From Liquorilactobacillus nagelii DSM 13675 (GTDB lineage: Bacteria; Bacillota; Bacilli; Lactobacillales; Lactobacillaceae), in contig NZ_CP049305.1 of the NCBI RefSeq assembly GCF_019444005.1, positions 12,181-76,180 of the forward strand: 64,000 nucleotides of DNA. Reading direction: 5' to 3'. The translations under genes were made by a program, and so were the position numbers. Below the pieces are notes generated by a model. It was not told the DNA's origin. It searched no databases and saw only the letters and a program-made list of their open reading frames with translations. This document shows, piece by piece, positions 1 to 59,442 of this stretch; the stretch's first letter is position 1; the number at the start of each line of letters is the position of its first letter.

Positions 1-119
1 TCTGCCAATTCGGTTTGAAGCAGCTGGTTAATCGCAATTTCGAGGTGGTGACGAAAAACTTCGTCCAAATCTTGCTTTTGGGCTAGTGCAGCGATAATTT
101 CTGTGGTAAGTTCATTCAT
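1..119 (-). CDS. IS256-family transposase, N-terminal fragment at window edge
   Basis: The first 39 codons of the mutator-type transposase are read on the minus strand from an ATG at 119-117. The remaining codons lie at 49470-50525, where the gene also carries a frameshift. The cut here comes only from the window boundary. Confidence 0.85.
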   Translation of the reverse strand, partial: MNELTTEIIAALAQKQDLDEVFRHHLEIAINQLLQTELA

Positions 120-236
120 GGGGAATGCCTCCTGTGATGTTTTCTGTGGTTACTAAATATCATAAGGGAAGGCATTCCCTATTTCTATACAATTCAGAAA
201 TCTTTTATGCATTTACACAAGATATTTTACGCTCTC
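1..236. mobile_element. IS256-family element, right end (continues at 49411-50761)
   Basis: This is the right end of the element that is complete at 49411-50761; the window starts inside it because the circle was opened here. The terminal inverted repeat lies at 210-236 and pairs with 49411-49437 at 22 of 27 positions. Bases 120-209 are the transposase upstream region. Confidence 0.85.
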
Positions 237-703
237 TTTTGTTTACAAAATTCAACTATTTGAGTTTTTATGTTGATTAGATCTATAATAAAGTTTAGAT
301 GGGGGTAAGTATAATATAGATTCTTTAGTTTCTGTATTGTCATATCAGTTCAACAACCATTTGGATAAGGTTATTGTACCTTTATTTTTTTTATTATTTA
401 AATAATGCCATTCTTATGTATCCAACTAGCCATAAGTAAACTATTTTCTTTGTTGATAAAATGAAAGCCGGGTGAATTTTAAAATCGAGTTCTGCATTTG
501 TTTGAAACAAAATCACATACCTTAGCTGTCTGTACTTTTGTTACAACTGCATTATTGTGTTTTAAATTTTTTATAATTAACAAATGCGGTGTAACTATTT
601 TTAGAATTTTTAAGTTAATTAACAATTACTGACTCACTAATACAACTTATTTAAGATTACATCAGATTAATGTTGGCTTCATAAAATGAAAGGATGAATT
701 ATC
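237..703. other. AT-rich intergenic stretch, no gene seen
   Basis: No open frame with a ribosome binding site and no clear hairpin terminator are visible. The stretch holds only the AAAGGATG-type ribosome binding region just before the GTG start at 704. Confidence 0.6.
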
Positions 704-1798
704 GTGAAAATAACATTAATAACACAGTATTTAGAGGGACATGGCGGTACCGAAAGAGTCATTTCGAACTTGGTCAACGAAGATTTAAAAAATGAATATC
801 AGGTTTTGATCCCTAAAAGCGGAAAACCTGAATGGCTCCAATGGATTACACGTACTACCGGCTACCAACTTAAAATTTGCCATGCACAAGATACACAAGC
901 ACAAAAAGAGTTTATTGAAAAAAATGTTTTAGCAGCAGAACCAGATATCGTTTTGGGACTCGAAGGCAGAGCTTGTGTAACTGCCTATCAGATCAGGAAA
1001 AAATATGACCTTCATTATAAAATTGTTTCTTGGGGACATACCTCCATTGCTGAATCAAACATTTTTGCTCGTCAAGAACTTGCTTTCTCAGAATATCATC
1101 TTGCAATTAGTACAGGGATAAAAAAACAGTTGATCAAACTCGGGGTCCCAGCCCAAAAAATCTTTCTGATCTATAATCCTATCCGCACTGTAAATAAGAA
1201 AACAATCAGCACACCTAAAGCTAACGCTCCTTTCCATGCAATTTTTATTGGAAGAATATTGTTGGATGATCAAAAAAATGTACGTATGCTTCTTGAATCA
1301 ATGGCACAGCTTAATATTCCTTGGAAACTGGACATCTTTGGCAAGGGAGCTGATCTTCCAAAAGCAAAAACATTAGCAAATGATTTGCATATTTCACAAA
1401 ACATTAACTGGCAAGGTTGGATGCCTAATCCTTGGGAAGCAATTAATGAAGCTGATTGCCTGCTGCTCTGTTCAAAATATGAGGGATTCCCAATGGTTGT
1501 TATTGAAGCTGCTTCTTATGGCTTGCCAATTGTTTCAACAAACTGTCCTACTGGACCGGCAGACATCATTAATTCCCACAATGGAATTTTAACTCCAATG
1601 AACGACCAAAAAGCTTTTATAGCTGCATGCCGGCAAATCTATCGTTTGCGTGGTAAATATAATCATACAGATATCAAAAAAACAGTTTTGAAATTTGATA
1701 TTTCTCGCTATATTAAGCACATAGAAAACATCTATAACTTAATTGCTGCTGATAATAAAAACACAGATAAATCAGCCATTAAACTTTCTTCTTTATAA
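704..1798 (+). CDS. Family 4 glycosyltransferase
   Basis: The 364-residue protein has a GT-B fold layout. An N-terminal glycine-rich loop with GGTER (about residues 14-18) opens the acceptor domain. The C-terminal domain holds EGFPMVVIEA (about 260-269), the GT4 E-x7-E nucleotide-sugar motif. Such enzymes transfer a sugar from an activated donor to a cell-surface glycan or glycolipid; this sequence resembles LPS galactosyltransferase-like members, but donor and acceptor cannot be read. There is no signal peptide or membrane segment, so it probably acts at the inner face of the membrane. The GTG start is chosen from the upstream purine-rich site. It stands alone between an IS256-type end and an ISL3 element whose left end lies 3 bp after its stop, so it may be passenger cargo. 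A second glycosyltransferase lies at 9014-10102. Confidence 0.82.
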   Translation: MKITLITQYLEGHGGTERVISNLVNEDLKNEYQVLIPKSGKPEWLQWITRTTGYQLKICHAQDTQAQKEFIEKNVLAAEPDIVLGLEGRACVTAYQIRKKYDLHYKIVSWGHTSIAESNIFARQELAFSEYHLAISTGIKKQLIKLGVPAQKIFLIYNPIRTVNKKTISTPKANAPFHAIFIGRILLDDQKNVRMLLESMAQLNIPWKLDIFGKGADLPKAKTLANDLHISQNINWQGWMPNPWEAINEADCLLLCSKYEGFPMVVIEAASYGLPIVSTNCPTGPADIINSHNGILTPMNDQKAFIAACRQIYRLRGKYNHTDIKKTVLKFDISRYIKHIENIYNLIAADNKNTDKSAIKLSSL

Positions 1799-1800
1799 TA

Positions 1801-3336
1801 GGTTCTTTATCAAGTGGTACTGATGAAATGAATTATTAAAAATAATAAGCAATTGGTCTACTTGGTCAAGCTGCTTGTTCCTGAATGGAATGAGCAGCTT
1901 TTTTAATGTGACTATGAAAATTCAAACTGACATAACTATTCTTTAATTCGATGAGAAGACGTAAACGGAAGTTTTCAAAGTTCCGGAAACCGTAAGCAGT
2001 CTTTTTAATGGCTTTGATCTTGTTGTTTGTTCCTTCCACGGGTCCATTAGAAAAGGTCGTCTGAAAGCTGTTCTTGATTTCTTGTAGATGTTTACGCAAG
2101 GTACGATTAGTTTTTTTGATGGGCTCAGGCATGCCTGCAGCTGAACGTGTTAGACTTTCTAAGAGCCTTGGATCTCGCTGCTGGACAGCTTGTAAAAGTG
2201 TTTGATAATAAACGTAAGCTTGTCGCAAAGCGGAGGACATATTTAATAAACGCTCCACAATATCCTGTTCACATAACTGCATATTACGAAAGTTTCTGCT
2301 TTTACGATAGGTTTTAAAATCAAGTTTGGTCGAGTCTTTAGTTAACAATTTCCAATAATGTTTCAAAGCACGTGCGTTGTGCGAACCCTGTCCCGCCTGT
2401 TTCATGGTTTGTGTCCGAACTAAGTTTAAGGCCCGATAAGCTTGGGTTACGACATGGAAGCGGTCGGCAATGATCAGCGCTTGCGGAAAGATCTCATGGA
2501 TCAAGGATCGATAAGGCGAGTACAGATCAACTGTGACCGTTTGGACTGCCCAGCGAGCTTGACGGTCATATTGTAAAAAGTAACTTCGTAAGTATGTATT
2601 ATGCCGAGAACGCACGATATCTAACGTGCGGCGTGTCGCAATGTCCATGACAATGATACTCATGCCGCTACTAGAAAAGTTGCCCGCTTTAAAGTCGTCA
2701 AAAGCGATATTTTGCGGTAAGAAATGATGATTGGGCCTTAAGTAAGTTGAGAGCTCTTGCGCAAAGCGCATCACTGTCATTCCAGAGATCCCAAAATCAG
2801 CGGCAATATCTTTTTGTGAGATATTCTGGTCTAATTTAGAAATAGCCTGATATTTAACGGCTTGTGAGATTTGGTCGTTAGCCTTGACGTCCTTGATCTC
2901 CGCAAGTTTTGTAATAGTTTTAGGGCAGGCAGCTGAAGCCGGGCAGAGATATTTTTGTTTGCGGATCGAAAAAACATTTGTGATCCCACCCGAAGGCAAA
3001 CCGAGCATCTCAACGGTTTTAAAACCGTTGTAGCGCATTTTTTGACCACAAACTGGGCAAGCACAAGGATAAGATTGCCGCAAATGGATCTTGCGGACTT
3101 TTTTATGTTGGTAAAATCCTGCAGCTATCACTTTATTCTTATATTTTGGATCAAATTCCAGGTGTGAGTCTTTAATTCCCAATAGATCCAGTGTACAATT
3201 CTTCATGTAGGACATTCCTTTCAGTGTAGGGATTGTTTCTTTGAGATGAAGTGTGTCTTCATCTCTATTTTTTTATCATAAAACAAAATTGGTACTGAGA
3301 GAAGATTTTTCTATCAGTACCAAATATTATAGAACC
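1801..3336. mobile_element. ISL3-family insertion sequence
   Basis: Imperfect terminal inverted repeats lie at 1801-1827 and about 3308-3336; both start GGTTCT and share the inner block GGTACTGAT. The 1536-bp element carries one minus-strand transposase. No direct target repeat was found, and the right flank is a gene that lost its 5' part, so the insertion was followed by deletion or recombination. Confidence 0.85.
1866..3215 (-). CDS. ISL3-family transposase
   Basis: The 449-residue DDE transposase has an N-terminal zinc-ribbon-like region with CPVCGQKM (about residue 54 onward) and CPASAACP. A helix-turn-helix follows (DIAADFGISGMTVMRFAQ), then the catalytic region with AFDDFK, IADRFHVV and the C-terminal GPVEGTNNKIKAIKK block typical of ISL3 (Tnp_ISL3). 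The length matches the family, and the gene is unbroken in both readings of the plasmid, so it is probably active. Confidence 0.93.
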   Translation of the reverse strand: MSYMKNCTLDLLGIKDSHLEFDPKYKNKVIAAGFYQHKKVRKIHLRQSYPCACPVCGQKMRYNGFKTVEMLGLPSGGITNVFSIRKQKYLCPASAACPKTITKLAEIKDVKANDQISQAVKYQAISKLDQNISQKDIAADFGISGMTVMRFAQELSTYLRPNHHFLPQNIAFDDFKAGNFSSSGMSIIVMDIATRRTLDIVRSRHNTYLRSYFLQYDRQARWAVQTVTVDLYSPYRSLIHEIFPQALIIADRFHVVTQAYRALNLVRTQTMKQAGQGSHNARALKHYWKLLTKDSTKLDFKTYRKSRNFRNMQLCEQDIVERLLNMSSALRQAYVYYQTLLQAVQQRDPRLLESLTRSAAGMPEPIKKTNRTLRKHLQEIKNSFQTTFSNGPVEGTNNKIKAIKKTAYGFRNFENFRLRLLIELKNSYVSLNFHSHIKKAAHSIQEQAA

Positions 3337-3809
3337 CAGTTTTAAGACAATCCGTTGGTGTTAAGAAGGGATCGGGTACTACATGGTTTTGTAAATGTGA
3401 TTGTGGTAATTATACCGACGTGGCAAGCACAAAACTTATTCAAGGAACTACCAAGAGTTGTGGTTGTCAATTAAAGAAGGCACGAGAAAAATGGAAAAAT
3501 ATTTACAAAGATGAAAAGATACAAGAGAAGATAAAAAAAACTTTTAGAAAAAATGACGGTCGTGAAAAAAATACTAAACTATCTATATTGGAACTAGCAA
3601 CAAGCGACAAATTAAAGGCAAATAATTCTAGTGGTGTAACAGGGGTTTCTTATAGTAAACGTGATAAGAGGTGGCGTAGCTATATCACAGTAAAACATAT
3701 ACGCTACGAGCTAGGATATTTTAAAGATAAGGAAAGTGCAATCCAAGCTCGAAAAAAAGCTGAAAAAGAATTAGTTGAACCCATTTTAAAAAAATACAAA
3801 AATAAATAA
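3337..3809 (+). pseudogene. AP2-domain (HNH/homing-endonuclease-like) protein, 5'-truncated
   Basis: The open frame starts directly at the ISL3 right end, with no start codon. It reads a Cys-rich zinc-binding block (WFCKCDCGNY, then SCGCQLKK) followed by a C-terminal AP2-like DNA-binding module (SSGVTGVSYSKRDKRWRSYI, then ELGYFKDKESAIQARKKAE). This is the usual order of phage and plasmid AP2/HNH-type proteins. The N-terminal part is missing, removed by the ISL3 event. An internal GTG at 3420 could still start a 129-residue product. The last codons of a sister copy survive at 39101-39157, again directly upstream of a holin-like toxin module. Confidence 0.7.
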
Positions 3810-3911
3810 AAAATTCATAGCCTTTATAAGACACGAAATAGATTTGTTATAAAAAATAAGCTGAAAAATACCTTACTACCCAATTTTTTACAGACATGAT
3901 ATAATAGAAGC

Positions 3912-4028
3912 AGAAAAAGAAGCCTTGCTTGAACAAGACTTCCCATGTAGAACCGTTTAAGACGGTGGCATAACTTAATACGATTAAATAACCGCTAGCT
4001 TGCCAGAGCTAAGGCGGTTATTTTTTTT
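3912..4028 (+). ncRNA. Antisense RNA (type I antitoxin candidate), copy A
   Basis: A TATAAT -10 box at 3900-3905 precedes a short transcript region with two small hairpins, GAAGCC...GACTTC and ACCGTTTAAGACGGT. It ends in a GC-rich hairpin (4001-4020) with an eight-T run. Its 3' end overlaps the end of the toxin gene on the other strand, the arrangement of type I toxin-antitoxin pairs. The same hairpin order occurs at 26134-26258 and 39212-39333. Confidence 0.65.
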
Positions 4029-4122
4029 GCTGATTTTTAATCAACTCAACAACTAATGCGATTAAGGCCACGATAAAAGTACCGAAAGCCAGCATTAATT
4101 GTAAAGCGTCCGAAACGGACAC
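4018..4122 (-). CDS. Putative holin-like toxin (type I TA), copy A
   Basis: The 34-residue peptide has one membrane span (LMLAFGTFIVALIALVVELI) and a charged end (KNQQKK), matching the Hol_Tox family of small membrane toxins that depolarise the cell when not repressed. The GTG start at 4122 follows AAAGGAG at 9-bp spacing. A minus-strand TATAAT lies at 4229-4224, and a strong SD-ATG leader (ATG GTG TAA, from 4169) lies between promoter and toxin. The antisense RNA overlaps the 3' end. Confidence 0.7.
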   Translation of the reverse strand: MSVSDALQLMLAFGTFIVALIALVVELIKNQQKK

Positions 4123-4354
4123 TTGGGCTACTCCTTTCCTAGAATGTGAGTTTATAGTTTTTACACCATAAGCACCACCCCCTTTAAGGAAATAGTCACC
4201 GCCTTAACTTCTCTACTTGAACTATTATACAGGATAACTAGTAATTTACCTATTGATGATTAATGTTATATTACCTTAATAGGCATTGAAACATTGCATT
4301 TAAGTTTTATTGTGTATAACGATGTTACACAAATTAAATCGGTGGTGGTTTAAA

Positions 4355-4771
4355 ATGAAAAAAATTTATTTTTTATGTACAGGAAATTCTTGTCGCAGTC
4401 AAATGGCTGAAGGATATGCCAAAAGTATACTATCGCCCGATATTTTTGAGATAGAAAGCGCGGGTATTGAAACGCATGGACTAAATCCAAATGCTGTTAA
4501 AGTTATGGCTGAAGACGGAGTAGATATTAGTAGCCACTACTCTAAATTAATTGATCTAAGGTATTTTAATACTTCAGATTTAGTTATTACTTTATGTGGT
4601 GATGCAAAGGATAAATGTCCTATGCTTCCCCCGCAAACAAAAAGTTTACACTGGCCTTTATCTGACCCAGCGCAAGCAACAGGAACATTAGAAGAGCAAC
4701 TAGAAGTATTCCGTAAGGTTCGTGACGAGATTAAAAAATTAATTATAGATTTAAATGACCACTTTCATTGA
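4355..4771 (+). CDS. arsC: Thioredoxin-type arsenate reductase
   Basis: The 138-residue protein belongs to the low-molecular-weight phosphatase-like ArsC family, which reduces arsenate to arsenite in the cytoplasm using thioredoxin. The P-loop CTGNSCRS supplies Cys8, Cys13 and Arg14. CGDAKDKC supplies the relay cysteines Cys81 and Cys88, corresponding to Cys82 and Cys89 of the staphylococcal enzyme, so all catalytic residues are present. ATG 4355 is preferred over upstream starts because GGTGGTGG lies just before it. No arsR, arsB or acr3 gene is nearby, so export of arsenite must rely on other genes. A terminator follows at once. Confidence 0.9.
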
Positions 4772-4779
4772 TTACAGAA

Positions 4780-4813
4780 AAGCGACATAACTCAACGATT
4801 GTGTCGCTTTTTT
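4780..4813 (+). terminator. Rho-independent terminator of arsC
   Basis: The stem AAGCGACA / TGTGTCGCTT closes a 12-nt loop and is followed by a T run. Confidence 0.85.
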
Positions 4814-4924
4814 AATACCATGTAATTAATGGTCTTAGCATATGTTATAATTTATCGCCCTAATTATGATAGGAAAACTTATGCAAAATCTAATAAACTT
4901 GATGTCAAAATACAGTATAGTAAC

Positions 4925-4956
4925 AAAAAAGATACTCTGAAAATTAAGCAGAGTAC
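4925..4956 (-). terminator. Terminator of the parA-repC operon
   Basis: Read on the minus strand, TACTCTG and CAGAGTA form a stem followed by TCTTTTTT. It lies 190 bp past the end of the partition genes. The rest of 4814-5146 holds no credible gene. Confidence 0.7.
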
Positions 4957-5146
4957 CTTTCTGTTGATATTAGTGGATGTTTTTCGGATGATGAGGATTA
5001 ATCATATTTTGAATGTAGTTAGTTACCTAATATTTTTTTCTTCACGATTCAAAACTTTAACCTGATTTGCTTGATTTGGGTGTTTCTTGAGATAACTTAT
5101 TATTTATAACTGAATGCTTATTCTCATTGATTTTGTTTGTTGAATT

Positions 5147-5425
5147 TTATTTTTCATTTTGTTTTAACATAAGCAGGATCGTTTCTTTTTGCCGTTGAGA
5201 AACATTATTATCCAAGTAGGTTTTACACATCTGATTAACTAAATCGTACATCTTAGTATCGGTAACGACAGACATACTTTTAATTAAGTCATATACAGGT
5301 GGATCAACCTTAATGGTCTTTCGTTCGTTAGCCTTATATTCTTTTTTGATTGAAAGATTTCTGCTAACATCGGCAGTATTTTTGATGTTTGGTTGAACAT
5401 TGTTATCCCTCTTCAGTAAAGCCAC
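5147..5425 (-). CDS. RepC/DUF5388-type partition or replication accessory protein
   Basis: The 92-residue basic protein resembles the small second gene of lactobacillar parA cassettes (annotated RepC or DUF5388). An unstructured N-terminus (MALLKRDNNVQP) leads into a ribbon-helix-helix-like part with ERKTIKVDPPVYDLIK and a helical tail. Such proteins bind centromere repeats and pair with ParA. The GTG start at 5425 lies inside the end of parA (23-bp overlap) with AAAGGGG upstream, so translation is likely coupled. Confidence 0.65.
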   Translation of the reverse strand: MALLKRDNNVQPNIKNTADVSRNLSIKKEYKANERKTIKVDPPVYDLIKSMSVVTDTKMYDLVNQMCKTYLDNNVSQRQKETILLMLKQNEK

Positions 5426-6308
5426 TAAGCGTCAGCCCCTTTCCTTTTTCAGTGAGCCTATTATTATTAATAAATTCATGTTCATATTTAAAATCTACGA
5501 CATCACCAGTTTTTTCAAAAGATTTGATTCTTAATAATAATTCTTTGAATATATCTGCATATAGTGCAAAAATTCTTTTATCATGAAAGTCTTCAAATTG
5601 AATTCCTTGTGCTGTGTACCATTCCAATCTAGCATGATTGTTAATAATGTTATTAAATACGTTATCACGGCCAAAATATTTTATGGTTTCATCAACTATT
5701 TTTTGCTGTAAAGGTCTACGCGCCTGTAAAAGAACTGGCAAGACACCAGCAACTTGAACATTAATCATATTCCCAAAATCATTTACCAAAGTTTGTAAAT
5801 ATGTAAGAATAAGACGCTTTGATCCATCGAAAGCAAATTGTTGTGTCTCTTGAATAACAATAACATAGTCGGCACAAACCATAGCATTATCGACTTTAAT
5901 ATCTGTGGAAGGTGGAACATCAATGAAAATAAATTCATAGTTATCTTTGATCTGATCTAAAAGTTTTTTTAAATAGAAGGTCTTATCTGTTAATGATTTA
6001 AACTTTTTATCCAGGAATTCGGTATAGTTACGCATGTCATAGTCGCACCCAATTAAATCTATCTTCGGAGCTAAGTGTACAATTCCTTGCGACAGGTCTT
6101 CTTTTTCCAAGCAGGCCATTAAAGTGTTTGGAATTTCAGGATTTCCGAAAGTCTTTGATAAAAACTGAGTTGCATTCCCCTGTAGATCTGTATCTATGAC
6201 TAACACTTTTTTATTAAATACGGTGGCGGCCACTACTGCTTCCATTACTGTGTCTGTTGTTTTACCTACGCCACCCTTTTGTTGAGCGTTAATTATTGTA
6301 TACGTCAT
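5403..6308 (-). CDS. parA: ParA-family partition ATPase
   Basis: The 301-residue Walker-type ATPase has the deviant Walker A KGGVGKTT at residues 11-18, DTDLQGNAT as the A' motif, and FIFIDVPPSTD as Walker B. There is no N-terminal helix-turn-helix, so it is of the small (type Ib-like) kind, which moves plasmid copies over the nucleoid. It is read with the 92-residue partner. The upstream 24-bp repeats at 6586-6657 are the likely centromere. Confidence 0.92.
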   Translation of the reverse strand: MTYTIINAQQKGGVGKTTDTVMEAVVAATVFNKKVLVIDTDLQGNATQFLSKTFGNPEIPNTLMACLEKEDLSQGIVHLAPKIDLIGCDYDMRNYTEFLDKKFKSLTDKTFYLKKLLDQIKDNYEFIFIDVPPSTDIKVDNAMVCADYVIVIQETQQFAFDGSKRLILTYLQTLVNDFGNMINVQVAGVLPVLLQARRPLQQKIVDETIKYFGRDNVFNNIINNHARLEWYTAQGIQFEDFHDKRIFALYADIFKELLLRIKSFEKTGDVVDFKYEHEFINNNRLTEKGKGLTLSGFTEEG

Positions 6309-6379
6309 TTAGACACCTCCATTAAATACATAGTAAGTCAATTTTATTTAAAAGTAAAGTAAAATGTAGTAAATCTCCT

Positions 6380-6660
6380 TTATACTTGTTTATCAAAAAG
6401 AGAAAAAGAGATTATGCTCCTAAGAGAAAAGGAGAAAAAGAGATTAATCTCCTATTCTCTTAGTACCTTAAGAGAAAAGGAGATTAAGAGAATAAACACT
6501 ATAAAAAGGCCTTCTAATCAATAATAATAATTTAAAAAGGAGAAAAAGAGATTAAGAGAAAAAGAGATTAGTGTAAAAAGAGATTAAGAGAAAAGGAGAA
6601 TAGTGTACTAAGAGAAAAGGAGAATAGTGTACTAAGAGAAAAGGAGAATAGTGTACTAAA
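6380..6660. repeat. Purine-rich direct repeats: candidate parS or iterons
   Basis: Three perfect 24-bp units, each AAGAGAAAAGGAGAA plus TAGTGTACT, lie at 6586-6609, 6610-6633 and 6634-6657. Degenerate AGAGAAAAGGAGA and AAAAAGAGATTA units extend back to about 6380. The position upstream of parA fits a centromere. Iterons of an origin are the alternative, since unit length and number also fit Rep_3-type origins. Confidence 0.7.
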
Positions 6661-6732
6661 TTATCAAAAGGTGATTTTTTGCATAATAGCTTTACACTAG
6701 AGATGAAAAGGAGTAATCTATAAATAACAAAA

Positions 6733-6768
6733 AGAAGCTTATCTATTGATAGATAAGCTTCTACATAA
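6733..6768 (-). terminator. Near-perfect palindrome, minus-strand terminator
   Basis: AGAAGCTTATCTAT and its exact complement flank a 2-nt loop (6733-6762). On the minus strand the hairpin is followed by TTTTTGTT, so it would stop transcription heading toward the repeats and parA. Confidence 0.6.
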
Positions 6769-6839
6769 AAGAAAAAGCCACCCAATATTGGCGTATTGGA
6801 ATGACCCGAACTAAGTCTTTATTTATGGTCTCATTGTAG

Positions 6840-7937
6840 CACATTTTACTAGTGTGTTCAATGTGGTGATTTTCAAAACTCAGGAGACAAGCTGAGTAGT
6901 AGGTTAGTAGTACATAGGTTTCATATTTCGATATGCGACAGCTGCTTATGGATGAACGCTAAAAAGTAGACATCTGGTGAACTCAGCCAGAACTTCACAA
7001 AAATAATTGAGTAGTCTATGGATTCTGTAATCTGATCTGTAGGCTGGGTTCAGAGCCGACCTGCAGACATAGAAGCTGCTGACTAATGGCTAGAGTGGTA
7101 ACATGAATGGAGTCTTAACATACAGTAAGGGCATGTTTTTGCTGGTGAGTAAAAAACTTAATTGTTAAGATAGCTGTAAGAAGCTGAAACTAGATTACTT
7201 GTGAGTGAAGCGAGGGGAAACCTCAAAAACTGAGCTGCACGTTATTTTTTTGTTTTTCTCTGCAAAATTAAGGGAAAAACTTTGCTCATATCGCTTCAGG
7301 CTTCCTAAAAACTAAGCCAGCCAAGAACAGAAGTCAACTAAAGGTATTCATATTTATTGAATAACTTGTTAAGAATGTAAGTGAGGTTTCAAAGTAGGGG
7401 ATTTGAAATTCACAAGTTCAGAAAGTTAGGTTAATAAGAATCTTGCGAAGTAAAATAACTATACCAATTTTAGTTAAGAAATTGGTAAAATTAGTAAGTT
7501 GATTTTAAGTTGCTGAGTAGGGTAGTTGCGAGTATACAGCGGTATACTTAGATTAAGATGCATTATGTAAATTAAAAAGTTTTTTAACTAGTAAACATGC
7601 ATGTTAATATATAAAAACACCAGGATAACTAAATCCCAGTATTTTTGTATCTACTTCTTGTTATTTCTAAATATCAAGTATATGATAAATAGTTGAATAA
7701 CTAGAGAAACAGATAAAGTAAATGTTACTTGCAAAGCGTAGCATACAGTTTAATTAAAGGCAACCAGCCTTGTGTTGTAGCCATTTACCAGTATAGCATA
7801 CTGGACTTGATAGCTATGAAATGATAATACGTAGGTAAGGTAAATGGAAAACAAGGGGTTTTATCCTTTTAAGTGGACTTAATCAACCCACGTCACTCAC
7901 GGGCTCTCAGACTTAACTCTCTGAGGGCCTATTTTTT
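6840..7937 (+). ncRNA. Candidate large structured noncoding RNA (about 1.1 kb)
   Basis: No frame here carries a plausible gene on either strand. Local hairpins are dense: CTCAG/CTGAG (6879-6896), CTGTAGG/CCTGCAG (7037-7066), GAGG/CCTC (7212-7224), TTTCAAA/TTTGAAA (7387-7408), ACCAATTT/AAATTGGT (7463-7486), AGTATAC/GTATACT (7531-7548), and CCATTTACC/GGTAAATGG (7781-7847) enclosing CAGTAT/ATACTG. It ends in a rho-independent terminator at 7902-7937. A second T-rich stop near 7235-7257 could yield a shorter 400-nt form. Size, lineage and lack of ORFs recall the GOLLD and ROOL classes of giant RNAs, but membership cannot be judged by eye. The 5' end is a guess, as no convincing promoter was found. 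An origin region is the alternative. Confidence 0.45.
7902..7937 (+). terminator. Terminator closing the ORF-free structured region
   Basis: The 9-bp stem GGCTCTCAG / CTGAGGGCC (one G-U pair) is followed by TATTTTTTG on the plus strand only. It serves the plus-strand transcript, not the convergent corA-like gene. Confidence 0.75.
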
Positions 7938-7968
7938 GTATTAATTTTCTTTTATTTACCTCATGGTT

Positions 7969-8919
7969 TCAAAGGTATTTTATATGCTTTAGTACAATGT
8001 AACATGTTAGGGTAGCAATAACGGTAATTATGGATACAATAAAGAAACCAGGCATTGAAGATTGGAAGGGAACCTTAGTATTAACACCCCAAAGGCCAAC
8101 TATGATAGTGGGAATAGTGATAATAATTGATAGTTCTGTTAAAATTTTCATAATGATATTTAACTGATATGAAATGATATTGCTGAACATGTCACTTAAT
8201 TGGGAAATTAAGGTAGTTAGGGTTTTTGCTAATTTTAGCGTTTGCAATCTTTGGATACGTAGTTGGTATTGCTTGTCCTTATACTTAGCGTTGTTTAAAA
8301 AGAGTTTTTCACAGTGTTCTAAAATATATTGGAAGGTTTTTTCATTACTTTCTAAAGCGCTTTCTAAAAACACGATGCTTTTTTGACAAGCAGCAAGCCT
8401 GTCTAACCCAGCGCTGTTAGTTTGGAGCTTATGAATATTTCTTTCTATTCCTATTATTTCACTTTCTATTTTTAGAAGCTGTTTTTTAAATTCTTCGTAA
8501 ACTGAACTTATAAGGTGTATGGCTAACTCTTCTTTATTATTATTAACTTCGCCTAATTTTTTTGGGGGGGCTATGAAAGGTAAAATAATGTCAGTAACGG
8601 TTATTATGGTACTATCAACTAGCAGTATTAGTAATGGATAGCCCGTAGTAACATTATTTTTCCCAAATGTACCTTCTCCAGCACATAACAATAATATTTC
8701 AGTAATTTGCTGCTGTTTTAGATTAGTAATGTAATTAATGTGAGAGGCTGTATTTAAATTAGAACTTTCGCGAATAATATCTCTAGGTAAAAAATATTTT
8801 GACGTAATGTATTTTATTTCCTCCTCAGTCGGTTTTATTAAACTAACCCAGTCGATCCGTTCTTTTTCTTGTGCCACAAGTATTTTCTTATTTTTAAAAA
8901 TATAGTTTTTTAAAATCAT
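7969..8919 (-). CDS. CorA-family divalent cation transporter
   Basis: The 316-residue protein has a long cytoplasmic, coiled-coil-rich N-terminal domain and two C-terminal membrane helices. The pore signature after the first helix is GVN (about residues 278-280, in GLWGVNTKVPF) instead of the usual GMN. CorA proteins are pentameric Mg2+ channels; GVN variants exist among ZntB/CorA-like members, so the ion is uncertain. ATG 8919 is chosen because GGAGGTG lies 5-11 bp upstream, inside a longer possible start at 8931. The gene is intact here but has a one-base deletion in the second reading at 58861. Confidence 0.85.
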   Translation of the reverse strand: MILKNYIFKNKKILVAQEKERIDWVSLIKPTEEEIKYITSKYFLPRDIIRESSNLNTASHINYITNLKQQQITEILLLCAGEGTFGKNNVTTGYPLLILLVDSTIITVTDIILPFIAPPKKLGEVNNNKEELAIHLISSVYEEFKKQLLKIESEIIGIERNIHKLQTNSAGLDRLAACQKSIVFLESALESNEKTFQYILEHCEKLFLNNAKYKDKQYQLRIQRLQTLKLAKTLTTLISQLSDMFSNIISYQLNIIMKILTELSIIITIPTIIVGLWGVNTKVPFQSSMPGFFIVSIITVIATLTCYIVLKHIKYL

Positions 8920-9013
8920 GTTCACCTCCATAAAGAATAAAAACTCTTCATATTATACCTACTTGGTCCCAAACAAATCCATATTTGGCCATATGAATAG
9001 GGAAAATTTAAAT

Positions 9014-10102
9014 TTAATTTTGCTCATTTAATTGACTAAAAAGTAAATTCCATTTTTCATTAATATAAGGTAGTCGGAAGTCGTGTGACCGTTGTGTTGC
9101 AAGGTTTCCAAATTTTTGTCGCAAGTCAATATTTTTCAATAATGGTAATAGTTTTCTGTAGAGATGCTCTGTATTATGGTCTGCGATTATTATTCCATAT
9201 TTTCCACTTTGTAAATATTCTTGTGAACCTGTATTCCACATACTCACAATTGGCAGCCCAAAGTTCATAGCTTCACCGATAACTAATGGAAATCCCTCCC
9301 ACCTAGAAGTTATTACAAAGATTGAGCCATTTCTATAATGTTCTTGTAATTCCTCGTCGGGTAAGGAATCTAAAATAATAAATTGTTTCTCTATTTTTTT
9401 GCTATGAACCTCATTTTTTAACCATTCTTTGTCAGGCCCATCACCAGCCAACTTTATTTGCCAATTATCGGGCAAGCGTTGCGCCAATTCTAACAAATAG
9501 TCAAGTCCTTTATGTTTTACATCTGTTCTGCAAACAGCTACAATAACATTTTTATTCAAGTTACTTTTATGATTAGACACCAGCGTAACTGGGTTATGGA
9601 TCTTTATTGTATTAACATTATGTTTTGAAAATTTTAAAAGGTCGCTTTCTGTTAAAGTTACGACTGTATCCACCGCTTCAAGTCCAGCAATAAATTCAAC
9701 CCGCATATCCTGATAGTATTCTTTCATATAAGTCTTATAATTATTGTGCATCCAAGCGATTAATTTAGTGGTAGGATTTGCTTCCTTTATTAACGGACTA
9801 AAGCTAGTAAAGAGTCCTGCATTCAGAAGAACAATATCGATCTTCTCTTTTTTTATGGTTGTGTTTAAATCTGCAATCTGTAACTTGAATTTTTTTAGTG
9901 GGAGATCTTCACGGAAACTTTTTCCTGAATTTATTGGATGTTTGGCTTTAATCAAAGGAGCTTCTAAATGGAAAAAAGAACCTGCTGAGGACAATGAATA
10001 ATAAAAGATATTGTGTTGTTTAGCTAAGCTATTACCAACAACGGTGGCAACTCTTTTAACCCCATCCATTTTTAAGTTTTCTATACAAATTAAAATGTTC
10101 AT
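9014..10102 (-). CDS. Family 4 glycosyltransferase
   Basis: The 362-residue GT-B enzyme starts MNILICIENLKMDGVKRV, a donor-independent N-terminal loop. It carries VAVCRTDVKHKG at the start of the C-terminal Rossmann domain and EGFPLVIGEAMNFGLPIVS, the GT4 E-x7-E motif. It probably adds sugar to a cell-envelope polymer, with donor and acceptor unknown. It has only distant similarity to the enzyme at 704-1798. The start at 10102 follows AAGGAAGG at good spacing. It is transcribed toward corA with a 94-bp gap, possibly one unit. Confidence 0.8.
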   Translation of the reverse strand: MNILICIENLKMDGVKRVATVVGNSLAKQHNIFYYSLSSAGSFFHLEAPLIKAKHPINSGKSFREDLPLKKFKLQIADLNTTIKKEKIDIVLLNAGLFTSFSPLIKEANPTTKLIAWMHNNYKTYMKEYYQDMRVEFIAGLEAVDTVVTLTESDLLKFSKHNVNTIKIHNPVTLVSNHKSNLNKNVIVAVCRTDVKHKGLDYLLELAQRLPDNWQIKLAGDGPDKEWLKNEVHSKKIEKQFIILDSLPDEELQEHYRNGSIFVITSRWEGFPLVIGEAMNFGLPIVSMWNTGSQEYLQSGKYGIIIADHNTEHLYRKLLPLLKNIDLRQKFGNLATQRSHDFRLPYINEKWNLLFSQLNEQN

Positions 10103-10376
10103 ACTATTAACCTTCCTTAGTGACAAGTTAAGAACTTGCTTTAAATTTTAGAGCTTGGGAAAATTAAATTTAAAAAAGAAGCAGTGCAGCTAAGCTTTCA
10201 CCGTCTTTACTGCTTTATATAGTAGGTTATTGAATATAAGTAGAGCTTAACAATAAATGTTTACCAAAACAAATAATTTGTATTTAAAAAGCTAAACCAT
10301 TACGCTTGGATTAAGTTTTAAATACACGTTCCGTTTTTGAAACCAATATTTTTTAACCCTATTAAGGAGGCTGATT

Positions 10377-11237
10377 GTGGTGGTAAAAGACCAAGAACCT
10401 AAAAAAGATTATTTGATAAACGATACGGAAAAGGAGTTGAAGCATGCACCCTTACTGGAAGATCCAAATTATATTCCAGCTCACAAACTTGAAGGGAAAG
10501 TTGCAATAATTACAGGAGGAGATAGTGGTATCGGAGCTGCAACTGCGATTTTGTTTGCTAAAGAAGGCGCAGATATTGTAATAGTGTATTATGAATCTGA
10601 TAAAGATGCTAATAATATAGCTAAAAGAATACGGGAAATAGGCCGCCAAGTTTTAGTTTTATCGGGGGACATTGCTGATGAAGGCTTTATTAAAAAAATA
10701 ACAGCAGAAACTTCACAGAAGTTTGGTCATGTTGACATACTTGTCAATAATGCTGGTGAACAACATGTTCACGAACATTTTTTAGATATTCCAATGAGTG
10801 AAGTCACAAGAATTTTCAAAACAAATGTTATAGGTATGTTTATGTTGACTAAAGCAATATTTCCTCTATTTCGAGAGGGTGGCTCAATAATAAACACTAC
10901 TTCTATTACGGCATATGCAGGCTCACCTGTCCTTGTTGATTATTCTGCAAGCAAAGGAGCAATCTTATCTTTTACTCGGTCATTAGCGCAGAATGAAGAC
11001 ATATTAGAAAAAAAGATTAGGGTAAACGCAGTAGCACCGGGGCCAATCTGGACACCACTAATTCCTGCAACTTTTACTTCTGAACAACTAAAAACATGGG
11101 GCAAAAGTAATGCACTTAAAAGGCCAGGTCAGGCTTTCGAAGTAGCTCCAAGTTATTTATTTTTAGCAGCTGAAGAAAATAAATATATTACTGGACAAAC
11201 TATCCATGTTAATGGTGGTTCTGTTGTTAACGGATAA
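10377..11237 (+). CDS. Short-chain dehydrogenase/reductase (long N-terminal type)
   Basis: The 286-residue classical SDR has the NAD(P) motif GGDSGIG at residues 47-53, NNAG, and the catalytic pair Tyr189/Lys193 in YSASK. It begins with a 40-residue extension (KHAPLLEDPNY) typical of the general-stress SDR group that includes Bacillus YhdF/YdaD-like proteins. The substrate is unknown. The GTG start follows AAGGAGG. With the CorA, glycosyltransferase and KGG genes around it, it forms a stress-like group. The second reading has several indels in it. Confidence 0.88.
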   Translation: MVVKDQEPKKDYLINDTEKELKHAPLLEDPNYIPAHKLEGKVAIITGGDSGIGAATAILFAKEGADIVIVYYESDKDANNIAKRIREIGRQVLVLSGDIADEGFIKKITAETSQKFGHVDILVNNAGEQHVHEHFLDIPMSEVTRIFKTNVIGMFMLTKAIFPLFREGGSIINTTSITAYAGSPVLVDYSASKGAILSFTRSLAQNEDILEKKIRVNAVAPGPIWTPLIPATFTSEQLKTWGKSNALKRPGQAFEVAPSYLFLAAEENKYITGQTIHVNGGSVVNG

Positions 11238-11378
11238 CGCTTAATTAGTTGAATTATAAGCGCTCCTTTTATTCTCACAATTTTGCTTAGTGTTTTAGCT
11301 TCACTAGCATAAAAATGCTCACTATACTTGTCCAATCTATGTGCACTGTGTACTAGCTATAATAACAACTTGAAATTA

Positions 11379-11419
11379 AAGTAACCCCTTAGTGATCGGT
11401 GATCACTAAGGGGTTACTT
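11379..11419. repeat. 41-bp near-perfect palindrome between convergent genes
   Basis: AAGTAACCCCTTAGTGATC and its exact complement flank GGT. It lies between the SDR and KGG genes, which converge. No T run follows on either strand. It may act as a bidirectional stop or as a protein site. Confidence 0.65.
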
Positions 11420-11498
11420 AGTTGGCAATTTATTTTAACTAGGTGACCGATATTAATTAATAATTATTTTTTAGGTTTATTTTATATTTGTCTAAAGG

Positions 11499-11870
11499 TT
11501 ATTTATTTCGTTGTTCTCCGCCTTTTTTTCCAATCTTTTCATAAAAATCTTTATCATGTGACTTAGCAGTTGTTTTTCCGCCTTTTTTCCCAATTTTTTC
11601 GTAATGGTCTTTATCATGTGACTTAGCGGTTGCTTCTCCGCCTTTTTCCCCAATTTTTTCGTAATGGTCTTTATCATGTGACTTAGCGGTTGCTTCTCCG
11701 CCCTTTTCACCATTTTTTTCGTAAAAGTCATCACCATGAGAATCGGCAGTTGCTTTTCCGCCTTTTTTCCCAATTTTTTCATAATAATCTTTATCATGTG
11801 ACTTAGCAGCTGCTTCCCCGCCCTTTTTTCCGGCTTCTGAACGAGTTAATTTATCATCTTTATTACTCAT
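11499..11870 (-). CDS. KGG-repeat stress protein (GsiB-like)
   Basis: The 123-residue, very hydrophilic protein is built from about five 20-residue repeats, each KGG(E/K)A(T/A)AKSHDKD(H/Y)YEKIG. It matches the KGG family of Bacillus GsiB and plant LEA-like proteins, linked to desiccation and general stress. The underlying DNA is a 60-bp tandem repeat at about 11525-11830. The start at 11870 follows AGGAGG. No membrane segment or cysteine is present. Confidence 0.85.
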   Translation of the reverse strand: MSNKDDKLTRSEAGKKGGEAAAKSHDKDYYEKIGKKGGKATADSHGDDFYEKNGEKGGEATAKSHDKDHYEKIGEKGGEATAKSHDKDHYEKIGKKGGKTTAKSHDKDFYEKIGKKGGEQRNK

Positions 11871-12322
11871 AACTTGTTCCTCCTTATCATGATATTTTTT
11901 ATTAAGCATAAGGTATTACTAATGCATATCATTACCTTTAGGCTTATAGTCATAGTACAGCCTATAGAATTTAAAGTCAAAACATCTGTTTTATTTATTT
12001 TGATTGAAATTATTGCCAAAATAACATACTTTAAATTCTCTTTACTTAGAAGGCTAATTATTTTATTTTAAAACACTGGCCATAATTTGAGGTTTTTCCC
12101 GAATGTATAAATAATTTTAGAAGAGACTACAATTTGCCGTAAAATTTAAAAAAGAATGTTAACAAGGTGAAAGCGCCATTATTATGTAGTATAATTAAAA
12201 ACACTTTTATATAGATAATAAAAAATCTGGATAACCAAAATTTTACAAACTATAATTATCGAAAAAAACAATTTCTTTGGTTTTTAGAATGTTGTTTAGC
12301 TTTTAAAGTGTTTCTTTTAAGT
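11871..12322. other. AT-rich intergenic stretch, no gene seen
   Basis: A 65-codon open frame from about 11874 lacks a ribosome binding site and is composed mostly of hydrophobic AT-driven codons. No feature can be supported before the resolvase control region. Confidence 0.5.
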
Positions 12323-12397
12323 GTACCCTAGTGGTACATTTTTTTAGTTGTGTTATACTAAGAAAAACGTCTGTACCATTTAGATGTACCAAGGAGG
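12323..12397 (+). promoter_or_regulatory. Resolvase promoter and inverted-repeat operator
   Basis: GTACCCTAGTGGTAC (12323-12337) is an inverted repeat. It is followed by a TATACT -10 box at 12354-12359, another GTACC pair near 12375-12390, and AAGGAGG. The same order (palindrome, T run, TATACT) stands before the second resolvase at 39795-39835, so self-binding by the recombinase is likely. Confidence 0.6.
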
Positions 12398-12405
12398 ATT
12401 CAGAA

Positions 12406-13011
12406 GTGAAAGTCGGATATGCACGGGTTAGTACCGCTGAACAGAACTTAGATCGTCAATTAGAGGCACTCAAAAAAGCTGGTGTGCAAAAAATCTTTGC
12501 CGAAAAAATTTCGGGGAAGAATGCAGACCGGCCTCAATTAAAAGTTATGTTGGAATATATTCATGATCAAGATGAGATTGTCGTCTTGAGTTTGGATCGT
12601 TTAGGTCGAAGTTCACGTGACTTGACGGAAATTATTGAAGAAGTCCGCCATAAGGGAGCTGTGCTAAATATTTTGGACTTACCAAGTTTCGCAGGGGTCG
12701 AAGACCAAAATTTGAAGGCTTTATTATCTAACCTAGTATTGGAGATCTATAAATACACGGCTGAAGAAGAACGGCGCAAAATCCGCGAACGCCAACGGCA
12801 GGGAATTGAGCTGGCTAAACAACGTGGCGCTTATAAAGGCGCTGTCCGTTTGTATGCACCAGATTCACCTGACCGCCGGAAACGTTATCTGTATCATCAG
12901 ATAGTGCAAATGCTGCAGCAAAATCCACCAGTGCCGATTGCACAGATTGCTAGAACAATTGGGACTTCAAGGTCACAGATTTATCGGATTAAGAAGTTTT
13001 CCAACCTTTGA
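12406..13011 (+). CDS. Serine recombinase (resolvase/invertase family)
   Basis: The 201-residue protein starts MKVGYARVSTAEQNLDRQL, with catalytic Ser9 and the conserved YxRVS and DRxxR patterns, LDRLGRSSRDL, and a C-terminal helix-turn-helix (IAQIARTIGTSRSQIYRI). Such proteins resolve plasmid multimers or invert DNA. The GTG start at 12406 is set by AAGGAGG 8 bp upstream. It is about 55-60% like the second resolvase at 39882 by eye. The plasmid thus has two multimer-resolution candidates. Confidence 0.9.
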   Translation: MKVGYARVSTAEQNLDRQLEALKKAGVQKIFAEKISGKNADRPQLKVMLEYIHDQDEIVVLSLDRLGRSSRDLTEIIEEVRHKGAVLNILDLPSFAGVEDQNLKALLSNLVLEIYKYTAEEERRKIRERQRQGIELAKQRGAYKGAVRLYAPDSPDRRKRYLYHQIVQMLQQNPPVPIAQIARTIGTSRSQIYRIKKFSNL

Positions 13012-13070
13012 TCGAGTAAAAGTGATGCTACATATATTATGGTGGTTGAAAAGAGTTGTTGATGTACTAA

Positions 13071-13385
13071 ATTGGAGTTAGCATAAGAAAGAGTAAAGAA
13101 GAACTAGCTGCAGCTTATTTTTTAATATTAGAAAGAAAAGATACAAACGACTTCTCACAAGGACAATTTCAAGATGAACGTCAAAAGCTTTTCAATATTC
13201 AGCATAATAGTGAACTAACAGATTAAGAGAAATGGCGTGCAACGGATAAAGTTAAGGGACTACCACTAGGGTCCATTGAAAAACAAGCTTTAGCTGAACA
13301 GCAGATTGAACACGATAAAAAGATCAGAGATCAAGCGAGACAAGAAGCACTTGCTGAACTCCGAAAGGGTTTGGAAATAATGCCT
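13071..13385 (+). pseudogene. repB: C-terminal remnant of Rep_3 replication initiator
   Basis: The frame reads ERKDTNDFSQGQFQDERQ, then FNIQHNSELTD, a TAA stop, and EKWRATDKVKGLPLGS up to EALAELRKG. This matches, from memory of the family, the C-terminal tail of lactobacillar Rep_3 initiators, which ends by overlapping the start of a DUF536 gene exactly as here. Only about 100 of some 300 codons remain, an internal stop is present, and no N-terminal DNA-binding half is found. It cannot supply initiator function. Confidence 0.65.
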
Positions 13386-13859
13386 AAAACTATTAGAGAA
13401 CTTGCTAACGAATTTGGTGTATCAAAACAAGCCATTAGGAAAAAACTAGATGCAAACTTTAGAGCAAACTATGTGCAAACAGTTCCTAGGAACGGAGTAC
13501 AAACCTTAGTTGTCAGTAACTCAGGATATTTGCTGTTAAAACAACATTTTGGTGGTAACAACCAGGAACTTGGAAAGGAAACATTTACTAGTAACACTGG
13601 TAACATAAGTATAAATACAATAGAATTGCTCAACCAGCAATTATTAACCAAGGATAACCAAATTAAAGAAAAAGATGAACAAATAAAATTAATGCAAAAA
13701 TTATTGGATCAGTCACAACAATTGCAATTGATGGCTGAAAAGAAAATTGAAAAATTTGAGGCTATTCCTTCTGAAAAATATTCGGTTGATAAAAATATTA
13801 ATGCTAATGATATAGAGAACAAAAGTTTGAAGTCTCGCTGGTGGCATTTTTGGAAATAA
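13380..13859 (+). CDS. DUF536 replication-associated protein
   Basis: The 159-residue protein has an N-terminal helix-turn-helix (IRELANEFGVSKQAIRKKL, residues about 4-22), a short beta part (VQTLVVSNSGYLLL) and a long coiled coil (LLTKDNQIKEKDEQIKLMQK). This is the usual DUF536 pattern found directly downstream of Rep_3 genes in lactococcal and lactobacillar theta plasmids, often called RepB or OrfX and not essential for replication. ATG 13380 sits in the end of the rep remnant. It is intact although its partner is dead. An IS3 element starts 6 bp after the stop. Confidence 0.8.
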   Translation: MPKTIRELANEFGVSKQAIRKKLDANFRANYVQTVPRNGVQTLVVSNSGYLLLKQHFGGNNQELGKETFTSNTGNISINTIELLNQQLLTKDNQIKEKDEQIKLMQKLLDQSQQLQLMAEKKIEKFEAIPSEKYSVDKNINANDIENKSLKSRWWHFWK

Positions 13860-26101: not shown

Positions 26102-26133
26102 CCAGTTTTTAAGGGACATGCTATAATGTAATA

Positions 26134-26645: not shown

Positions 26646-26677
26646 TGCTCCTACGTCAAGTTTTGGTACTAAAAAAA

Positions 26678-57182: not shown

Positions 57183-57364
57183 AAATTATCAAAAGGTGAT
57201 TTTTTGCATAATAGCTTTACACTAGAGATGAAAAGGAGTAATCTATAAATAACAAAAAGAAGCTTATCTATTGATAGATAAGCTTCTACATAAAAGAAAA
57301 AGCCACCCAATATTGGCGTATTGGAATGACCCGAACTAAGTCTTTATTTATGGTCTCATTGTAG

Positions 57365-58461
57365 CACATTTTACTAGTGTGTTCAATGTGGTGATTTTCA
57401 AAACTCAGGAGACAAGCTGAGTAGTAGGTTAGTAGTACATAGGTTTCATATTTCGATATGCGACAGCTGCTTATGGATGAACGCTAAAAAGTAGACATCT
57501 GGTGAACTCAGCCAGAACTTCACAAAAATAATTGAGTAGTCTATGGATTCTGTAATCTGATCTGTAGGCTGGGTTCAGAGCCGACCTGCAGACATAGAAG
57601 CTGCTGACTAATGGCTAGAGTGGTAACATGAATGGAGTCTTAACATACAGTAAGGGCATGTTTTGCTGGTGAGTAAAAAACTTAATTGTTAAGATAGCTG
57701 TAAGAAGCTGAAACTAGATTACTTGTGAGTGAAGCGAGGGGAAACCTCAAAAACTGAGCTGCACGTTATTTTTTTGTTTTTCTCTGCAAAATTAAGGGAA
57801 AAACTTTGCTCATATCGCTTCAGGCTTCCTAAAAACTAAGCCAGCCAAGAACAGAAGTCAACTAAAGGTATTCATATTTATTGAATAACTTGTTAAGAAT
57901 GTAAGTGAGGTTTCAAAGTAGGGGATTTGAAATTCACAAGTTCAGAAAGTTAGGTTAATAAGAATCTTGCGAAGTAAAATAACTATACCAATTTTAGTTA
58001 AGAAATTGGTAAAATTAGTAAGTTGATTTTAAGTTGCTGAGTAGGGTAGTTGCGAGTATACAGCGGTATACTTAGATTAAGATGCATTATGTAAATTAAA
58101 AAGTTTTTTAACTAGTAAACATGCATGTTAATATATAAAAACACCAGGATAACTAAATCCCAGTATTTTTGTATCTACTTCTTGTTATTTCTAAATATCA
58201 AGTATATGATAAATAGTTGAATAACTAGAGAAACAGATAAAGTAAATGTTACTTGCAAAGCGTAGCATACAGTTTAATTAAAGGCAACCAGCCTTGTGTT
58301 GTAGCCATTTACCAGTATAGCATACTGGACTTGATAGCTATGAAATGATAATACGTAGGTAAGGTAAATGGAAAACAAGGGGTTTTATCCTTTTAAGTGG
58401 ACTTAATCAACCCACGTCACTCACGGGCTCTCAGACTTAACTCTCTGAGGGCCTATTTTTT
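57365..58461 (+). ncRNA. Candidate large structured RNA (repeat of 6840-7937)
   Basis: It differs from the first copy by one T fewer at 57661-57664, the first discrepancy of the overlap. All hairpins listed for the first copy are kept. Confidence 0.45.
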
Positions 58462-58492
58462 GTATTAATTTTCTTTTATTTACCTCATGGTT

Positions 58493-59442
58493 TCAAAGGT
58501 ATTTTATATGCTTTAGTACAATGTAACATGTTAGGGTAGCAATAACGGTAATTATGGATACAATAAAGAAACCAGGCATTGAAGATTGGAAGGGAACCTT
58601 AGTATTAACACCCCAAAGGCCAACTATGATAGTGGGAATAGTGATAATAATTGATAGTTCTGTTAAAATTTTCATAATGATATTTAACTGATATGAAATG
58701 ATATTGCTGAACATGTCACTTAATTGGGAAATTAAGGTAGTTAGGGTTTTTGCTAATTTTAGCGTTTGCAATCTTTGGATACGTAGTTGGTATTGCTTGT
58801 CCTTATACTTAGCGTTGTTTAAAAAGAGTTTTTCACAGTGTTCTAAAATATATTGGAAGGTTTTTCATTACTTTCTAAAGCGCTTTCTAAAAACACGATG
58901 CTTTTTTGACAAGCAGCAAGCCTGTCTAACCCAGCGCTGTTAGTTTGGAGCTTATGAATATTTCTTTCTATTCCTATTATTTCACTTTCTATTTTTAGAA
59001 GCTGTTTTTTAAATTCTTCGTAAACTGAACTTATAAGGTGTATGGCTAACTCTTCTTTATTATTATTAACTTCGCCTAATTTTTTTGGGGGGGCTATGAA
59101 AGGTAAAATAATGTCAGTAACGGTTATTATGGTACTATCAACTAGCAGTATTAGTAATGGATAGCCCGTAGTAACATTATTTTTCCCAAATGTACCTTCT
59201 CCAGCACATAACAATAATATTTCAGTAATTTGCTGCTGTTTTAGATTAGTAATGTAATTAATGTGAGAGGCTGTATTTAAATTAGAACTTTCGCGAATAA
59301 TATCTCTAGGTAAAAAATATTTTGACGTAATGTATTTTATTTCCTCCTCAGTCGGTTTTATTAAACTAACCCAGTCGATCCGTTCTTTTTCTTGTGCCAC
59401 AAGTATTTTCTTATTTTTAAAAATATAGTTTTTTAAAATCAT
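58493..59442 (-). pseudogene. CorA-family gene, frameshifted repeat of 7969-8919
   Basis: A T6 run has become T5 at about 58861, splitting the frame into 203- and 92-residue pieces. The intact first copy shows the true sequence. Confidence 0.8.

Follow-up and report, generated by a model that had tools for sequence, protein, structure and literature searches.

Replication without a Rep protein has been described for ColE1, in which a long primer-like RNA (RNAII) is combined with a short antisense RNA (RNAI), and antisense-controlled leaders of rep genes are common. How large plasmids of lactic acid bacteria replicate without a recognised Rep gene is the question addressed here. The p256 replicon of Lactiplantibacillus plantarum (NC_006278.1) was reportedly treated by Sorvig et al. 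in 2005; it is a common Lactobacillus vector replicon and, in the present analysis, was seen to carry an RNAI/RNAII-like promoter pair. One report gives no replication-protein gene for pTC7, a plasmid five nucleotides away from p256, and notes that a theta mode was proposed for p256 (PMC8346141). According to two further reports, the copy number of p256 is 3-5 (PMC9934402), and its mini-origin works in a 1690-bp plasmid that also holds a CAT gene (PMC3526553). For the long non-coding RNA (lncRNA) of Lactobacillus salivarius, the highest expression goes with a high megaplasmid copy number (PMC5643018). In the case of ColIb-P9, UUGGCG is the target-loop motif named in the title of Asano et al. 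1998, a paper cited in PMC10724649 and PMC4374534.

The window, i.e. the whole 64-kb stretch of DNA analysed here, is held by a contig (C2) of 76,180 bases. The first 6.7 kb of the window are repeated without change at an offset of +50,525, and later parts are repeated with small indels, so that the contig represents a circle of about 50.5 kb, a plasmid whose sequence overlaps itself at the contig ends; the redundancy concerns window positions 1-13400 and 50526-64000, the circle being read one and a half times. The RNA region is present twice in the window owing to these redundant ends. A near-identical locus (99.8% over 1301 bases) has been identified in NZ_CP045036.1 of Liquorilactobacillus mali LM596, for which PLSDB gives no replicon type. 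RatA antitoxin RNAs over cut-off are located in the window at 3902-3990, 26124-26213, 39202-39290 and 54427-54515, representing three distinct RNAs on the plasmid, one of them repeated in the redundant end. Together with an rli28 RNA, also over cut-off (4056-4238, again at 54581-54763 in the redundant end), they indicate several type I toxin-antitoxin loci on one plasmid. A 119-aa ORF (window 26384-26740) with a partial HamA (Hachiman defence) domain adjoins transposase genes. The features of the RNA locus and of the partition genes beside it are as follows:

5150..5425, minus strand: parB-like gene (PrgO in the near-identical plasmid, DUF5388-type in relatives)
5406..6308, minus strand: parA gene, annotated as PrgP in the near-identical plasmid
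6398..6666, no strand: AAGAGAAAAGGAGA-type repeats in tandem, separating parA from the RNA locus; putative partition site
6691..6719, plus strand: position of promoter P+ of the long RNA, TTTACA-17-TAATCT, weak in the window
6726..7575, plus strand: module A, an RNAII-like long RNA with conserved structure, given as its conserved span with putative ends
6733..6762, minus strand: second minus-strand terminator, 14-bp hairpin with T run, seen in the window
6765..6826, minus strand: predicted short antisense RNA (RNAI-like), its ends placed from promoter and terminator
6767..6799, minus strand: terminator hairpin of the antisense RNA, with the plus-strand loop TTGGCG at 6788-6793
6833..6861, minus strand: promoter P-, TTGAAC-17-TACAAT, in 11/11 aligned loci
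6879..6896, plus strand: covarying hairpin CTCAG-GAGACAAG-CTGAG, loop invariant in 14 alignment rows
6922..6935, plus strand: covarying hairpin CATAT-TTCG-ATATG, with a UUCG loop on the plus strand
6973..6991, plus strand: covarying hairpin TCTGG-TGAACTCAG-CCAGA, loop and following ACTTCACA invariant in 11 rows
57225..58524, plus strand: second copy of the RNA region in the redundant contig end (1300 against 1301 bases)

The original prediction concerned positions 6840-7937, read as a single hairpin-rich unit of 1.1 kb free of coding frames. The ORF-free stretch is real, no ORF of at least 50 aa being present on either strand of 6786-7968; the longest ORF in 6840-7937 has 36 aa, against a dinucleotide-shuffle mean of 57.5, and equally short ones were obtained in 2 of 200 shuffles. 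The plus-strand terminator was also found as described, with a hairpin at 7901-7929, a T run and an end at 7937. The seven or more exact inverted repeats were not recovered: six were counted (arm of 7 or more, loop of 3-40) against a shuffled mean of 3.4, and since at least six occur in 27 of 200 shuffles, a count of hairpins does not by itself set the region apart from random sequence. The folding energy does so, and the covariation even more clearly. The limits of the unit were set wrongly, the start lying near 6690, and the unit is not single: a plasmid module, A, which ends at about 7517-7575, is joined to a dispersed one, B, at 7617-7937. A single 1.1-kb transcription unit is doubtful, because the 3' third (module B) also exists on chromosomes without A, and the two modules meet at a recombination joint.

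Module A, together with the upstream promoter position, spans about 6690-7575 and is well supported as a conserved structured RNA; the large structured RNA that had been proposed is thus borne out by covariation across relatives. In a 14-row alignment, RNAalifold predicted 59 pairs, with both sides changed in 29 of them. The covariation analysis comprised 72 predicted pairs in 10 helices, with 98.2% of 822 cells paired and double changes in 29 pairs (74 cells); any of the five measures was reached by 0 of 500 shuffles, in a test where related alignment rows can exceed shuffles. Helices slid by 1-3 columns gave at most four double-change pairs, a control which leans towards the structure because the 72 pairs were derived from the tested rows. 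The plus strand is favoured by the consensus folding energy (RNAalifold, 11 distinct full-length rows: -64.2 kcal/mol for plus vs -38.9 for minus), and the G-U vs A-C cells in pairs common to both strands (5 vs 4) leave the strand undecided. Single-sequence folding of 6728-7620 gave a z of -5.25 on the plus strand (0/20 shuffles) and of -5.26 on the minus strand. The loop of the TCTGG-TGAACTCAG-CCAGA hairpin differs in two genomes (G155 and G105). P+ passes a strict scan in 6 of the 11 aligned loci, the window itself failing it, and reads TTGACA-17-TATATT in one relative. The Rfam scan gave no family over cut-off in the region of modules A and B; RefA9 at 6703-6761 (34.6 bits, cut-off 49), which corresponds to the hairpin beside P+, was rejected. 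No published description of this locus was found in the literature searched.

Within the first ~100 nt of the long RNA, a short antisense RNA is predicted. Its promoter P- has a score of 10 or more and a 17-base spacer in all 11 aligned loci (TTTACA-TATAAT in three of them), and the terminator hairpin follows about 60 bases on. The stem of this hairpin covaries, forming helix 2 of the module A structure. The loop is UUGGCG in the window and UUGGUA, UUGGAA, CUACCA or CGGCAA in other plasmids, further loops among the plasmids being CUGCAA, CUCCAA and GUGGAA (all read by eye). Among 10 pairs of co-resident plasmids, none has the entire hairpin in common and one has the loop in common; because shuffles also give 0 shared hairpins in 27% of cases, this exclusion is consistent, not significant, and was set aside as evidence.

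The 3' part of the region is organized differently, and comprises the following elements:

7517..7542, no strand: recombination joint where backbone A meets the B-CorA cargo, located through comparison with loci L057 and L070
7617..7937, plus strand: module B, dispersed element of ~310 nt with a covarying 5' hairpin at 7617-7640
7802-7830, plus strand: promoter-like site of module B, found in relatives; fails the scan in the window
7873-7891 and 7901-7937, plus strand: hairpin and conserved terminator, respectively, within module B

Window positions 7642-8950 share 90% identity with a second L. oeni B, which goes with a CorA gene, but only 70% with the L. oeni B that follows A, and from 7542 the window is 99% identical to an L. 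uvarum contig (C116); B and its cargo have therefore recombined onto A. Module B is found in 8 of 14 genomes of the genus and, by profile mapping, without A on several contigs between 91 kb and 2.5 Mb in size. Copies are present on contig C1 of the source genome (G000:C1) at 2167777-2168115, 966022-966114 and 2293579-2293659, and internally deleted or partial copies occur on chromosomes. The fold of module B has a z of -3.19, with RNAalifold energies about equal on both strands (-31.9 plus, -36.0 minus). Module B is a separate inserted element that supplies a terminator and would lie outside the proposed replicon, possibly an sRNA or a MITE-like repeat; the promoter-like sites inside it are suggestive only.

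The proposed comparison with related plasmids by blastn yielded seven plasmid records, all from Liquorilactobacillus, and no phage record. The matches are unannotated except in CP045036, where the match end touches the CorA gene. Among 397 Lactobacillaceae genomes, a clear match was obtained in 9 of the 14 of the own genus; eight further matches were dropped as pieces of 27-38 nt with E above 1e-4. A model of the A core found 10 of the 397 family genomes (8 of the own genus, 2 of another genus) and 1 of 345 genomes drawn from the order, namely the source genome itself. Profile mapping placed A with B in the L. mali twins of the window, in L. uvarum (two contigs) and in L. oeni; A without B is present in L. 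hordei plasmids, L. mali plasmid 2, G208, UCMA15818 and others, some of them cut by contig ends. L. sucicola carries an A fragment and B copies in a 294-kb contig, and one A fragment lies on a chromosome-size contig. Module A ends after ~550-610 nt in pL11822-1 of L. hordei and in plasmid 2 of L. mali LM596, and after ~320 in one LM596 copy. The exact pattern TGAACTCAGNNNNNACTTCACA occurs in 35 genome and 7 viral stretches, and only 9 of these 42 score as A (nhmmer, E below 1e-77); the remaining stretches (E of 1e-4 or worse) look like chance or coding matches and were rejected. On a 39.6-kb contig (L113, IMG/VR UViG_2548876975_000001), A stands beside parA and a LysM-domain, endolysin-like ORF (by eye), and this contig is a probable phage-plasmid using the same module A locus.

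A divergent parA adjoins A, with A upstream, in 23 of the 24 loci checked, a count which includes some near-twins and hence not only independent cases; the exception is the L. sucicola fragment. A motif identified the parA gene in 13 of these loci, annotation in a further 6 and tblastn in another 4. The ParA of the window shares 27-32% identity with the ParA proteins found by tblastn (L062-L064, L070), whereas A in more distant plasmids is 75-92% identical to that of the window; it is thus A that stays constant and ParA that varies. The genes downstream of A differ (CorA, RepA remnants, a replication-relaxation gene, other ORFs), and with a downstream neighbour that varies from one plasmid to the next, A is not a leader belonging to any single gene.

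The claim that the plasmid has no intact Rep has held for the families searched and listed. The genome-wide initiator search, which covered the RepA_N, Rep_3 and RepA_C families, gave 0 matches in the source genome (G000), so that the RepA_N initiator gene typical of RepA_N plasmids was not found. Pfam analysis of 44 of the 49 plasmid ORFs of at least 90 aa revealed no Rep among the families listed (25/45 and 25/40), these being MobA, Zeta toxin, Resolvase, CorA, transposases and metabolic genes; ten proteins rescanned singly added no Rep, and the five ORFs outside the scan look by eye like transposase pieces. The plasmid may carry an unrecognised Rep family. In five further A plasmids, neither RepA_N nor Rep_3 exceeded the cut-off (0/5), and four of them (4/6 records searched) carry a RepA C-terminal piece only, which in L. 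hordei pL11822-2 and pL11822-3 lies downstream of A. A weak, putative PF06970 remnant with two stops (11.5 bits, under cut-off) is located downstream of A in NZ_CP018179 (36891-36956).

Of the 10 related genomes with A, 6 have RepA_N somewhere, with stop-free matches over cut-off, and 4 have Rep_3. Relatives of the own genus carry these genes on contigs other than that of A. Separate contigs need not mean separate plasmids here, because G225, G271 and others are drafts in small contigs, and a Rep on another small contig could belong to the A plasmid. In the three-contig genome G208, A is carried by a 55-kb contig and RepA_N by contig C1 only, and neither RepA_N nor Rep_3 was found in G066 and G122. 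In G105, of another genus, a Rep_3 gene lies on the contig carrying two A copies. G155 has a short, degenerate A ahead of an intact RepA (L176, G155:C6, 5900-8064); this short A-like RNA lies between parA and the intact RepA_N gene, possibly as an intermediate or hybrid replicon.

Since module A occupies the replicon slot, looks like an antisense-controlled replication RNA and lies on a plasmid without a recognised Rep, it is probably an RNA-controlled replication and copy-control locus without a plasmid-encoded initiator. The observations behind this reading are the conserved covarying structure of A, the sequence of the P- promoter and terminator, the synteny and the absence of a recognised Rep; from them we infer transcription, priming and antisense control by A. 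A long plus-strand RNA (RNAII-like), from ~6726 to beyond 7500, would fold into the conserved multi-helix structure and supply a primer or open the origin to enzymes of the host. From P-, an RNAI-like short RNA of ~60-95 nt would be antisense to a portion of the long RNA's first ~100 nt, and loop-loop pairing at UUGGCG would keep the copy number down and set incompatibility. Module A would work like p256 and, in logic, like ColE1, and the inserted module B would be no part of the replicon. More tentatively, and with slightly less than even chances, A may represent a second, sequence-unrelated class of Rep-less RNA replicon in Lactobacillaceae, in which an RNA of 0.8-1 kb serves as the replicon of partitioned plasmids of ~50-60 kb, trades places with RepA and p256-type RNA beside parA, and is counted by a UUGGCG kissing-loop antisense RNA.

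Three identities had been offered for the RNA: a giant RNA of the GOLLD/ROOL kind, a new class, or replication control beside the partition cassette. The last is the best supported, and the GOLLD option is without support, the GOLLD model (RF02032) having no match in the region; in six records searched directly its best match, on a chromosome, reached 14 bits and was under cut-off. ROOL is not among the Rfam matches for 6300-8100 at E up to 10, in a library whose inclusion of the ROOL model is unconfirmed. Module A could be some other plasmid RNA, either partition-linked or a GOLLD/ROOL-like giant, that is dispensable for replication. A size near 0.8-1.2 kb, the parA neighbour in 23/24 loci, the copy on the probable phage-plasmid contig and the fragment on the chromosome-size contig would suit such an RNA, but the parA partners are dissimilar, so that no one partition system goes with A, and neither GOLLD nor any other Rfam family exceeds cut-off in the region. 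Moreover, the opposed promoter-terminator pair and the kissing-loop motif suit replication control, and slot and anatomy are common to p256; a dispensable RNA is accordingly held to be improbable.

A little more weight, though still that of an unlikely explanation, is given to A as an antisense-controlled leader that formerly belonged to a RepA_N gene and is now a control or incompatibility remnant, replication being done otherwise. The RepA C-terminal pieces on 4/6 records, downstream of A in pL11822-2 and -3, and the intact RepA after the short A of G155 are in line with it. Against this, the long covarying A is kept on plasmids without any RepA match, it precedes different genes, and the sole intact-RepA case (G155) is one with A shortened. 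Very improbable is a decayed coding gene or chance sequence, the former having been raised in the original prediction as the reading that would overturn it: RepA decay is perhaps seen downstream of A in a relative (the weak PF06970 remnant of NZ_CP018179), but compensatory changes in 29 pairs contradict such a reading of A, and an equally short longest ORF occurs in only 2/200 shuffles. Should the replicon reading of module A be right, RNA-only initiation would extend past small ColE1-like plasmids, plasmid typing by Rep genes would miss a class, and p256-based Lactobacillus vectors would gain a testable RNAI/RNAII mechanism and a tunable copy number.

Compared to the known systems, A is like GOLLD in its size class and mobile-element setting. 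It resembles the L. salivarius lncRNA in being a plasmid-borne long non-coding RNA; that RNA, however, has 520 nt, is reported as L. salivarius-specific and adjoins PTS and HTH genes instead of parA (PMC5643018), and was rejected as the identity of A for its different size and setting. The antisense Inc RNA of ColIb-P9 and the I-complex plasmids has the target loop UUGGCG in common with A; its target is the rep mRNA according to PMC10724649, whereas no rep gene follows A. ColE1 is like A in logic, with a long primer-like RNA, a short antisense RNA over its 5' part and no Rep. In contrast to ColE1, A belongs to a Gram-positive, partitioned plasmid of ~50 kb and matches no Rfam family over cut-off.

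The p256 RNA lies in an ORF-free region (5600-6480) that contains the reversed primer p256miniori_for (6229-6247), and has the promoters P+ TTGTAT-17-TATAAT and P- TTGAAA-16-TATAAT; no Rfam match was obtained for this region (L122 5600-6480) at E up to 1. Complete or partial matches to the region occur in 141 plasmid records, of which 26 cover 80% or more of its length, and its core model found 21/397 genomes in 11/40 genera, some at E near 1e-4. The p256-type RNA stands beside a divergent AAA ATPase in 3/8 fetched loci, two of these with DUF5388, and the loop words UUGGCG, UUGGUA or CGGCAA occur in 6/8 p256-type loci (by eye; L128 left out). Just after A, L. hordei pL11822-3 carries 228 bp that are 85% identical to p256 6518-6745 (E 4e-69). 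A Limosilactobacillus panis plasmid that already has a p256-type RNA shows a weak A-core match (L125 5424-5576).

There are also differences between A and p256. No homology of the RNA cores in sequence or structure was detected by nhmmer or two covariance models, the best cross-match (19.2 bits, E 0.041, in L125) lying away from the p256-type core, and A was rejected as a member of the p256 type by homology; the antisense unit is one hairpin in A and apparently three in p256 (by eye). The likenesses relate to the ORF-free region, with no replication-protein gene reported for the near-twin pTC7, to the opposed promoters predicting a short 5' antisense unit (for p256 also from sequence), to the loop words and the slot beside a divergent ParA-type ATPase (3/8 loci) in the p256 family, and to the 228-bp downstream segment common to p256 and the A plasmid pL11822-3. 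Judged by sequence features, A is closest in anatomy to p256, and may be classed with p256 as a variant form of Rep-less replicon, on functional grounds and not by homology.
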